From NCBI GenBank assembly GCA_021740915.1, contig JAIOYW010000010.1, forward strand, positions 1 to 64,000: a stretch of 64,000 bases of DNA, written 5' to 3'. This stretch comes from Ignavibacteriales bacterium. GTDB lineage: Bacteria; Bacteroidota; Ignavibacteria; Ignavibacteriales; Melioribacteraceae. A program made the position numbers and the translations under genes. The notes beneath the pieces were generated by a model. It ran no database searches and had not been told where the DNA came from. It saw nothing but the letters and a program-made list of their open reading frames with translations. Positions 56,086-63,655 of the stretch are shown here, piece after piece. Numbering within the stretch: the stretch's first letter is position 1; each line of letters begins with the position of its first letter.

Positions 56086-56502
56086 ATGGATCGAGAAGAA
56101 AGAGCCGTTAGCAGCGGAAAGAGCAGCCTTAGTGACAGGCACGACAAATATGCTCCATACTGGGCAGCGGCATTATTAATTCTATGTTTAACCGGAATTT
56201 CCACCATCTGGATTGATCTCGGAATATTCTGGAAAGGCTATGTTCTGGATATGACAGGTCCAGCCTGGAATTACATTCTGTTCAGAGGGCTTAATACCGG
56301 ATATGCTGATAACGTATGGACGCGCTTCTTTAAGCCTAAAAGCACCGTGATTATTTTTACTTCGGTCTGCATTCTGATCGAAACCCTGCAGTATTTCAAA
56401 GTATATGATTCCACTTTCGATCCCTGGGATTTCCTCGCTTATGCATCGCTCCTTTTTCCGGTTTACATTATAGATTCTTTCTCAAGTTTTAAACAGTATT
56501 AA
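56086..56502 (+). CDS. VanZ-like small membrane protein (intact paralogue)
   Basis: A 138-residue protein with three to four hydrophobic helices. The C-terminal segment CILIETLQYFKVYDSTFDPWDFLAYASLLFP has the E-x2-Q and D-x2-D spacing of VanZ/DUF2809-type membrane proteins, whose function is mostly unknown outside teicoplanin resistance. The name is by resemblance only. A second copy lies at 60565-60978 and shares most bases over its last 250, but carries a nonsense codon. The intact copy here has TGG at W42 where the other has TAG. Confidence 0.7.
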   Translation: MDREERAVSSGKSSLSDRHDKYAPYWAAALLILCLTGISTIWIDLGIFWKGYVLDMTGPAWNYILFRGLNTGYADNVWTRFFKPKSTVIIFTSVCILIETLQYFKVYDSTFDPWDFLAYASLLFPVYIIDSFSSFKQY

Positions 56503-60565: not shown

Positions 60566-60978
60566 TGACATCTTCAGAAAATTTGCAGAAGACCCGCGAA
60601 AAGATCAAAGCCTCACACGATAAATATGCACCCTACTGGGCGGCTTTATTGATTATATTATGTTTAACCGGATTATCGACTATATAGTTTGAGGCTGGTT
60701 CATTCTGGAATGGTTATGTACTTGATATGACCGGTCCGGCCTGGAGTTACATACTTTTCAGAGGATTGTTCACCGAATATGCTGAAAACGCATGGACGCG
60801 TTTCTTTAAGCCTAAAACCACTGTGATTATTTTTGCGGCAGTCTGCATTCTTATCGAAACACTGCAGTATTTCAAAGTATATGATTCCACTTTCGATCTC
60901 TGGGATTTGCTTGCTTATGCATCTCTCCTTTTTCCGGTTTACGTTATAGATTCTTTGCTTTTAAGTCAAAACAGATAA
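60565..60978 (+). pseudogene. VanZ-like membrane protein paralogue interrupted by one nonsense codon
   Basis: The frame from the ATG at 60565 (in TAATG with the previous stop) runs 137 codons to the same end as the intact copy at 56086-56502, with an in-frame TAG at 60685-60687 (codon 41). The intact copy has TGG (W42) at the aligned place. All else is conserved, including the ETLQYFKVYDSTF segment. A recent duplicate broken by one base change, a recoded stop or a sequencing error are the options. A restart at ATG 60727 would lack the first helix. Confidence 0.85.
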
Positions 60979-61143: not shown

Positions 61144-61944
61144 ATGAGAAATAAACAAAAACTTTACCAGATCATTTTCGAAAGCGATACAAAAGCGGGG
61201 AAAAATTTCGACGTTCTTCTTCTATGGTGTATCCTCTTCAGCATTCTGGTCGCAGTTCTCGACAGCGTACCTCAATTAAATCTGTATTTCAAAAATGAAT
61301 TCTATATAGTCGAATGGTTTTTCACAATCATTTTCAGTATTGAATACTTTCTGCGGATCTTTATTAGTCCAAAACCTTTTCGTTACATTTTCAGTTTTTG
61401 GGGATTTATTGATCTTCTGGCAATTCTCCCCACATATTTAAGTCTGGTAATATACGGTTATCACTATTTACTTGTTGTTAGAATCTTCAGATTGCTCAGG
61501 GTTTTCAGAATACTTAAACTGGTCCGTTTTAACAAAGAAGCAATTGTTTTGATCAGTGCGCTTAAAGAAAGTTCTTATAAGATTGGCATATTTTTCTCGG
61601 CAGTTCTCACAATAGTTGTATTATTAGGTACAATTATGTATGTTGTCGAAAACGGTGAAAACGGATTTACAAGTATTCCGCAAAGTATTTACTGGGCAAT
61701 AATAACTGTTACAACAGTGGGTTATGGTGATATCGTACCGCACACCGTTTTGGGAAAATTCATCTCCTCATTCGCCATGATAATCGGTTACGCGATTATT
61801 GCCGTTCCTACTGGTATTATCAGTGTTGAATTATCTAAAAAGTCCGAAATAAAAGTTATCTGCCCGGCCTGTGACTTCAGAAATACTGAAACTTCAAACT
61901 ATTGTTCCCATTGCGGTGCAATCCTAAAAAAGAAAGAATTATGA
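61144..61944 (+). CDS. Kv-type potassium channel with C-terminal zinc ribbon
   Basis: A 266-residue ion channel with six helices: S1-S3 at about 20-100, the S4 voltage sensor RIFRLLRVFRILKLVRF with five regularly spaced arginines or lysines, and the pore with selectivity filter TTVGYGD at 190-196. The C-terminus is C240-x2-C243-x10-C254-x2-C257, a zinc ribbon (PACDFRNTETSNYCSHCG), not the usual cytoplasmic tail. The stop overlaps the next gene's start by ATGA. Likely K+ selective. A redox or metal link through the ribbon is inference. Confidence 0.9.
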   Translation: MRNKQKLYQIIFESDTKAGKNFDVLLLWCILFSILVAVLDSVPQLNLYFKNEFYIVEWFFTIIFSIEYFLRIFISPKPFRYIFSFWGFIDLLAILPTYLSLVIYGYHYLLVVRIFRLLRVFRILKLVRFNKEAIVLISALKESSYKIGIFFSAVLTIVVLLGTIMYVVENGENGFTSIPQSIYWAIITVTTVGYGDIVPHTVLGKFISSFAMIIGYAIIAVPTGIISVELSKKSEIKVICPACDFRNTETSNYCSHCGAILKKKEL

Positions 61945-62753
61945 AAGAATTTCTTGAGACCAATCTTTTTGAAATAGGCAATTATACTCTGAAGATTTAC
62001 AACACACTGAGTTTTGCAATATTTGTCAGCATAATAATCCTTCTTTTATTTATTATTAAGAAAATTATTTATAGTTCGAGATCACTGGATTCTGCATCCA
62101 AATTCTCAATAAATAAACTCACCAAATATATAATTATTATCTTTTCGTTCGTTACAAGCCTGCACTTGCTGGGATTCAATATTTCAGTGTTGCTCGCCGG
62201 ATCTGCGGCCATTCTGGTTGGTATGGGTTTTGGGTTGCAAAATCTTTTCAGCGATTTTATCTCTGGCATTGTTCTTCTCCTCGATAAAACACTTAAAGTG
62301 GATGACATTATTGAAGTGAACTCTATGATCTATAAAGTCAAAGAAATTAATTTCCGGTCAACAAAAGTGCTTGGCAGGGATGAAAACTACATTATACTTC
62401 CCAATTCCGAACTAACAAGCAATAGAGTGATAAACTGGACTCACAGCGAAATCTCATCAAGATTTAAAGTCACAGTGGGAGTTGATTATTCGACTGATAT
62501 TATCATTTTGATTAAAACTCTAAAAGAAGTTGCCCAAATACATCCTAAGGTATTAAAGCAGCCTGAACCTTTTGTAAGATTTGAAGACTTTGGTGATTCA
62601 GCGCTTGTTTTCTCAGTGTTTTTCTATACCGATGAAGTTTTCAGAGTGGAAAACATCAAGAGTGAAATCAGAGTTGAAATTTTTAAGGCATTACACAACC
62701 ATAAAATAACAATACCGTTCCCGCAACGCGTATTGCACATAAAAAACGAGTGA
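61941..62753 (+). CDS. MscS-family mechanosensitive channel
   Basis: A 270-residue protein starting at the ATG at 61941, which overlaps the channel gene's stop (ATGA); an upstream TTG extension inside the channel gene is unlikely. Three hydrophobic helices lead into the MscS pore helix (about 80-115; LLAGSAAILVGMGFGLQNLFSDFISG), then the beta domain (LDKTLKVDDIIEVNSMIYKVKEINFRSTKV) and the C-terminal alpha/beta domain. Short MscS type. It opens under membrane tension and releases osmolytes. Cotranscribed with the K+ channel. Confidence 0.92.
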   Translation: MKEFLETNLFEIGNYTLKIYNTLSFAIFVSIIILLLFIIKKIIYSSRSLDSASKFSINKLTKYIIIIFSFVTSLHLLGFNISVLLAGSAAILVGMGFGLQNLFSDFISGIVLLLDKTLKVDDIIEVNSMIYKVKEINFRSTKVLGRDENYIILPNSELTSNRVINWTHSEISSRFKVTVGVDYSTDIIILIKTLKEVAQIHPKVLKQPEPFVRFEDFGDSALVFSVFFYTDEVFRVENIKSEIRVEIFKALHNHKITIPFPQRVLHIKNE

Positions 62754-62756
62754 ACT

Positions 62757-63655
62757 TTGGAAGAATTCATTAAATCTTATTTATTCAACCCGACTGTTGG
62801 CAAGATAATTTCAGTTCTTATGGTATTAGCGTTATATGGGCCCTGATAAAATCAGTTCAAAGAAATTTCTTATCGAAGATAAAAGAAAATGATAACCGTT
62901 ATCGGGCAAAGAAATTTAGCGGATTTATTGGATTTATACTTTCGCTGGTTCTTATTTCAGTGGTTTACAGCGATAAACTTGGAGGACTGACTGTCGCTCT
63001 CGGTGTTGCAGGTGCTGGTATTGCATTTGCCCTGCAGGAAGTTATTGTATCATTTGCCGGCTGGCTGACTATTATGTTTGGGGGTTTCTATAAATCCGGT
63101 GACAGAGTTCAGCTTGGTGGTATCAAAGGCGATGTAATGGATATTGGAGTTCTTCGCACAACAATTATGGAGACCGGACAATGGGTTGACGGTGATCTCT
63201 ATAATGGCAGGATAGTCCTTGTTGCAAATAGTTTTGTATTTAAGGAACCTGTTTATAATTATTCCGGGGAATTCCCCTTTCTCTGGGATGAAATAAAAAT
63301 ACCCGTTCAATATGGCAGCAATTACGAAAAAGCAAATGAAATTTTTCTTGAAATTGCCGGGGAAGTAACAAGTAATTTATCAGGGAAATCAAAAGAAAAC
63401 TGGGAATCTCTGAAAAATAAATACAGACTGGAAAATGCACAGACAGATCCAATGATCTCATTGGTGGCCAATGATAACTGGGTTGAATATACTATCCGCT
63501 ATGTCGTTGACTATAAACAACGGAGAAAAACAAAGACCCTGCTATTTACAAAAATCCTTGAAAAAATTGAAGCAACGAATGGCGAGATCAGGTTTGCATC
63601 GGCTACTTTCCATCTGGTCGAAGCGCCTGAAATTAAAGTGAAAATCAATTCGTGA
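62757..63655 (+). pseudogene. Second MscS-family channel, broken by a frameshift
   Basis: Starts at TTG 62757, four bases after the first MscS stop: MEEFIKSYLFNPTVGKIIS continues to LMVLALYGP and a stop at 62844. The expected continuation (WALIKSVQRNFLSKIKENDNRYRAKK) is in another frame from about 62837, one base short, and runs through helices, IAFALQEVIVSFAGW, GDRVQLGGIKGDVMDIG to 63655. The join restores an MscS protein with little or no loss. Either a recent 1-base deletion near 62830-62842 or a read error. A start at GTG 62960 would lack the first membrane helix. Confidence 0.8.

Follow-up and report, generated by a model that had tools for sequence, protein, structure and literature searches.

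Potassium channel and MscS genes at the locus

The window, i.e. the whole 64,000-nucleotide stretch of DNA that was analysed, contains a potassium channel gene followed by two genes of the MscS family (Table 1). Throughout, L numbers denote loci and G numbers denote genomes.

Table 1. Features of the channel and MscS genes, with positions given in window coordinates
Feature	Position	Strand	Evidence
Kv-type potassium channel, 266 aa, S1–S6 plus C-terminal ribbon	61144..61944	+	Ion_trans; Kv4/Kv2.1/KvAP matches; AlphaFold
S4 voltage-sensor charges, residues 113–128	61480..61527	+	Translation; invariant columns in 13-row and 77-row alignments
K+ selectivity filter TTVGYGD, residues 190–196	61711..61731	+	Translation; alignment
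Zinc-ribbon-like tail, residues 240–260	61861..61923	+	CX2C-X10-CX2C; family motif; pLDDT; sub-cut-off Pfam match
ATGA stop/start overlap, channel/first MscS	61941..61944	+	Sequence
MscS_A, MscS-family channel, 270 aa	61941..62753	+	Pfam domains; orthologues L206 and L235
MscS_B, second MscS-family gene, frame-shifted in first helix region	62757..63655	+	TTG start at 62757 inferred

The channel ORF matched the Pfam models Ion_trans (E = 1.1e-33) and Ion_trans_2 (E = 6.4e-17). The Ion_trans match, the alignment and the AlphaFold model all point to six helices with an arginine-bearing S4, whose charges in the translation are R113, R116, R119, R122 and K125. The four arginines are invariant in both the 13-row alignment (the window and 12 relatives) and the 77-row alignment. 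The TVGYGD filter is present in the translation and the alignment; in the 77-row alignment its columns T190 to G193, G195 and D196 are invariant and Y194 is nearly so. The model (mean pLDDT 89.5, pTM 0.69) matched Kv4 and Kv1 best when compared with known structures, and the solved relatives found by sequence were Kv4, Kv2.1, Kv1 and KvAP. The Ion_trans match, the S4 arginines and the TTVGYGD filter thus confirm the initial annotation of a six-helix, voltage-gated-type potassium channel.

The overlap between this gene and the next was also as annotated, with the channel stop codon TGA (61942–61944) overlapping the MscS_A start codon ATG (61941–61943). MscS_A has all three regions expected of the MscS family: TM2/3 (PF21088, 1.9e-6), the beta-domain (PF00924, 1e-19) and the C-terminal domain (PF21082, 3.7e-17). 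Its best NCBIfam match was the MscK pore region, far below the model cut-off, and its orthologues are at 48% in L206 and 56% in L235.

Only three bases separate the MscS_A stop from the inferred start of MscS_B. The MscS_B start region (TTG 62757) reaches a stop codon at 62844–62846, with the remainder of the gene in another frame. The 231-aa ORF that begins with GTG at 62960 is therefore a fragment without the first membrane helices. Of the MscS domains, the beta-domain (PF00924) alone scored above its Pfam cut-off, and no single open frame from the start codon carries both this and the C-terminal domain. Intact orthologues occur at L039:5058-5954 and L205:5915-6769. The break may reflect either a true pseudogene or an assembly error. 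MscS_B is also broken in genome G012 (L207). The initial annotation of a channel followed by two MscS genes is borne out for the first MscS gene; an intact third gene of the set was rejected.

The overlap and the subsequent 3-base gap suggest that the channel, MscS_A and MscS_B are probably transcribed together in the window. Across both strands there were 20 promoter-like sites, against 10.8 expected, and no terminator-like sites, against 1.9 expected.

A gene for a small membrane protein is present in two copies, at 56086–56502 and at about 60616–60956, which match each other in 289 of 344 aligned columns (84%). The second copy has an in-frame TAG at 60685–60687, and the stretch upstream of the channel therefore holds a decayed duplicate.

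A ribbon-like tail follows the S6 gate

The cysteines of the channel tail are Cys240, Cys243, Cys254 and Cys257, giving the CX2C-X10-CX2C spacing. In the AlphaFold monomer, the S6 helix spans residues 202–234 and is followed by ribbon strands at 237–239 and 246–248; the pLDDT is 88 over residues 241–250 and 93 over 251–260. The two CX2C knuckles are conserved at ribbon spacing, but the scores against the Pfam ribbon models were all below the curated cut-offs: 20.6 bits against 25 for Zn_Ribbon_1 (E = 0.00039), 16.7 against 27 for Zn_Ribbon_3 and 17 against 27.3 for DZR. The ribbon label therefore rests on the conservation of the cysteines together with the model, and we use ‘ribbon-like’ as the more careful term.

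The first tail cysteine lies 18–25 residues past the S6 proline in 140 of the 151 matched relative loci, and 18 residues past it in the window channel, so the knuckle directly follows the activation gate. The linker between the knuckles is X10 in the window; 15 of 151 relatives share this length, and the usual X11 is found in 135 of them.

The tail is a regular part of a widespread channel family

All four tail cysteines are invariant in 13 of the 13 aligned rows. The invariance seen in the 77-row alignment is by construction, as those rows were filtered for the motif. We searched the relative loci for CX2C-X(6-16)-CX2C and found it in 152 of 162. Of the first 96 loci, 16 are stretches of close relatives and 80 come from named genomes, the latter being the best 80 matches of a profile scan. 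Among these 96 there were 91 with the motif; of the five without, L047, L053 and L126 leave contig ends, L116 has lost one cysteine and L128 has CX1C. A further 66 loci from the phylum of the window gave 61 with the motif, the exceptions being L274, where a CX2H is found, and L280, L287, L294 and L296, where adjacent cysteines (CC) precede the second CX2C. Loci are not equivalent to genomes in these counts: one gene appears twice, as L083 and L042, another is split between L053 and L054, which cover its two ends, and the named and other loci may overlap in species. Judged by the last 120 residues there are 161 distinct loci, 151 of them with the motif. The relatives were picked by similarity to a ribbon-bearing query, a sampling that favours ribbon-bearing matches.

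Altered tail ligands were seen in seven relatives (L116, L128, L274, L280, L287, L294 and L296). In L274 it is the first CX2C that reads CX2H, and some of the CC variants have a histidine nearby. The changes in L274, L280, L287, L294 and L296 would be naturally occurring substitutions at the presumed metal ligands.

Strong channel matches (E below 1e-98) were present in 72 of 198 sampled genomes of the phylum, and all 73 strong phylum matches extend to position 270–272 of the 272-position profile. Weaker phylum matches (about 1e-36 to 1e-84) often end before the tail, and therefore related channels without the tail exist. An ORF was recovered at 10 of 14 loci of weak homologues; none of the 10 has the motif and only four have a GYGD-type filter, in a comparison set that is small and in which some ORFs may be wrong frames.

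Among the matches listed, named carriers of the channel belong to the Bacteroidota, Pseudomonadota, Thermodesulfobacteriota, Myxococcota, Acidobacteriota, Planctomycetota, Verrucomicrobiota (L116, with one cysteine lost), Nitrospirota and Calditrichota, and to the archaeon Methanolobus. Where a feature is named among the 30 plasmid records listed, the relatives are labelled ‘ion transporter’. As judged from these sequences, the tail is a regular part of a large channel family that crosses bacterial and archaeal phyla. That the ribbon is a private oddity of the window genome was rejected on the 13/13 alignment, the 91/96 loci and the 73/73 strong matches. The initial annotation had itself named poorly conserved ribbon cysteines as grounds for abandoning its proposal, and the recurrence of the motif in relatives upholds it on this point. 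Its description of the tail as unusual for Kv channels is borne out only in part: the tail is real and lies beyond the listed solved structures, but it is the usual state within its own family.

The channels nearest to that of the window (62–69% identity) come from genomes of another class (G067, G072, G129 and G170). In a tree of 94 rows, which omits these four, the window channel groups with that of G008 and that of Pedobacter puniceum, with weak support (85), near Bacteroidia channels and apart from most Ignavibacteria channels. Such a placement would fit horizontal acquisition.

Possible structural or sensory roles for the tail

The initial annotation suggested that the ribbon could bind metal or sense redox. 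Metal binding by the tail is supported indirectly, by the single Cys-to-His variant, the short and mostly uniform linker and the confident fold; redox sensing finds no support in these data. One reading is that the ribbon is a regulatory sensor, with labile zinc or oxidation of the cysteines opening or closing the channel. The model places the four cysteines just past the S6 gate, where a sensor could act, and the tail cysteines recur across phyla. However, the Cys-to-His change in L274 could leave metal ligation intact but would not allow disulfide chemistry, and near-invariance of the cysteines fits a structural site. Taken together, near-invariant cysteines with a rare Cys-to-His change are more in keeping with a metal site of structural function than with a switch based on disulfides, and we consider a sensory role unlikely.

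MscS genes are rarely found beside the channel in relatives

The initial annotation had taken the three-gene order to indicate a joint turgor system. The corresponding reading is of an electro-osmotic valve in which the channel is produced jointly with the MscS pair: the membrane potential would be set by K+ efflux and turgor released through the MscS channels. The ATGA overlap and the 3-base gap in the window favour such a valve; the frame shift in MscS_B does not.

Across the relatives, an MscS gene was found within two ORFs of the channel at only 4 of 162 loci, with differing MscS types and in one case on the opposite strand. At L039 (genome G008) a 647-aa MscS and an MscS_B orthologue precede the channel, with about 44 bp to the channel. 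This close spacing again favours a joint valve, and of the four loci only L039 has, near the channel, an orthologue of either MscS gene of the window, but the gene order differs from that of the window. At L079 (Roseivirga) a 542-aa MscS overlaps the channel by a few bases, at L104 the nearby MscS is on the opposite strand and at L311 an MscS lies at +2. None was found near the nearest channels (G067, G072, G129 and G170) within the 5 kb examined on each side (1.5 kb on one side in G072).

With ORFs and neighbour slots called mechanically, MscS genes occupied three of the 315 slots at ±1 and two of the 307 slots at ±2, against none of 931 farther away. This confinement to the nearest slots is the kind of pattern that a joint valve would give, although the enrichment over farther slots is modest, with p = 0.010 when ±1 and ±2 are pooled and p = 0.06 for ±1 by itself. 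A conserved channel–MscS neighbourhood, whose absence the initial annotation had named as counting against its proposal, is thus largely lacking in relatives. A conserved K+ channel–MscS operon as the rule was rejected on these 4 of 162 loci and on 2 of 23 MscS_B loci.

The MscS tandem usually occurs without the channel

Of 391 genomes of the class, 22 have an MscS_B orthologue, that of the window included. We examined 23 MscS_B loci (the window, L039, L205, L207 and L232–L250), some of which end at contig ends (e.g. L247), so that neighbours may be missed. A second MscS gene adjoins MscS_B at 10 of these (the window, L039, L205, L233, L235, L236, L237, L238, L241 and L244) and does not at the other 13. 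In 8 of the 10 the partner is a long MscS of 621–682 aa (divergent in L238). L235 has MscS_A followed by MscS_B, in the same order as the window, and there is no K+ channel in that stretch. A K+ channel adjoins the MscS pair only in the window and at L039.

Other ion-transport genes are found in these surroundings. Na+/H+ exchangers lie near MscS_B at L239, L240 and L243, and as the third gene downstream at L235; an amino-acid-permease/Usp fusion is near MscS_B at L205 and L236 and beside the MscS_A orthologue at L206; and a cation-chloride cotransporter is within 4 kb at L232. From the MscS_B locus counts, therefore, the recurring elements are the MscS tandem and the ion-transport genes around it; a K+ channel joins them at 2 of 23 loci. 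It is possible that a tandem of two different MscS-family genes encodes heteromeric or paired tension channels.

The genome of the window also encodes a 486-aa MscS-family protein (L008, C31:144459) whose tail, by eye, resembles a cyclic-nucleotide-binding domain.

The channel and MscS_B co-occur across genomes

The channel is present in 30 of the 391 class genomes, and 11 genomes have both it and MscS_B where 1.7 would be expected (p = 3e-8); these counts assume that the same 391 genomes were drawn for the channel, MscS_B and kdpA. The excess persisted when counted by genus (8 against 2.3 expected, p = 0.0005) and with the two adjacent genera left out (p = 0.005). The control gene kdpA, present in 117 of 391 genomes, showed no such co-occurrence: it was found with the channel in 1 of 30 genomes, against 9.0 expected, and with MscS_B in 3 of 22, against 6.6 expected (p = 0.06). 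A joint valve would be consistent with both the excess and its absence for kdpA. Among 58 close relatives, however, only two of the four genomes with MscS_B carry the channel, and the co-occurrence could stem from shared habitat or ancestry.

The data do not support the idea that genomes generally rich in K+ genes account for the co-occurrence, as kdpA avoids the channel. Across the 391 class genomes, the genes for the ribbon-tailed Kv channel and the Kdp potassium pump are largely mutually exclusive.

Because MscS genes are enriched near the channel and the two co-occur across genomes, some functional coupling of channel and MscS is possible. The proposed joint turgor system keeps this residual proximity and co-occurrence in its favour and loses its conserved neighbourhood, and we regard a dedicated valve as conceivable in this small subclade but distinctly improbable.

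Proposed organization of the channel

The explanation that we favour, and hold to be probable, is of a K+ channel that carries a structural zinc ribbon beneath its gate, lying beside osmotic-release channels by chance or through mild selection and forming no conserved machine. The S4, the filter and the fold, taken from sequence and model, would make the channel a tetrameric, voltage-dependent, K+-selective protein of the Kv type, which is expected to open upon depolarization and to let K+ flow down its gradient. Each subunit would end in a ribbon-like knuckle 18 residues past the S6 proline, the four cysteines of which most likely hold one zinc ion. Extrapolating from the monomer model, four such knuckles may ring the cytoplasmic opening of the S6 gate like a collar. 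Their role is most likely structural: they could steady either the S6 end or the tetramer as a whole, or provide a docking surface. The two downstream genes, by family, would encode ordinary tension-gated release channels. The MscS pair appears to be a tandem unit usually found without a K+ channel, which suggests that the three-gene order is an occasional clustering of ion-homeostasis genes.

A more far-reaching proposal, and the most doubtful of those considered, is that a family-wide ring of four zinc ribbons under the S6 gate takes part in gating and that, in a small subclade, the channel and the tandem MscS genes make up an electro-osmotic release unit. If true, this would be an undescribed gate element found across Bacteroidota, other bacterial phyla and methanogenic archaea. 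The significance lies in a gate-proximal element, absent from the listed solved relatives, in a very common bacterial Kv channel (about a third of the sampled phylum genomes, from the 72/198 above); this element may act in assembly, gating or docking. The window itself adds little to this: one more family member and an occasional MscS neighbour.

Comparison with known systems

A literature search, covering titles and the openings of abstracts, yielded no description, among the matches listed, of a prokaryotic Kv channel that bears a zinc ribbon or lies next to MscS genes. PMC3581485 names the zinc ribbon together with SHOCT proteins. The tail was not covered by any of the 60 solved structures listed from 293 family-profile matches: none of these extends past position 252 of 273, and the tail begins at about 251.

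The closest known counterparts of the downstream genes are the MscS-family mechanosensitive channels (MscS and the MscK pore domain), of which MscS_A has all three MscS domains. MscS_B departs from this family in having the beta-domain alone above the Pfam cut-off and in being frame-shifted in the window.

The window channel has S1–S6, the S4 arginines, the TVGYGD filter and the overall fold in common with Kv4.2/4.3, Kv2.1 and the prokaryotic KvAP. Unlike these solved relatives, it is too short ahead of S1 to hold a T1 domain and adds a C-terminal ribbon after S6. It also resembles the prokaryotic ‘ion transporter’ family with its CX2C-X10/11-CX2C tail, to which it is 47–69% identical over the whole length with the same tail, differing in its X10 spacing where X11 is usual. 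In sum, the gene codes for a Kv-type channel whose ribbon-like tail is conserved, a variant that is common though little described, and its clustering with an MscS tandem, the second gene of which is broken in this assembly, is occasional.
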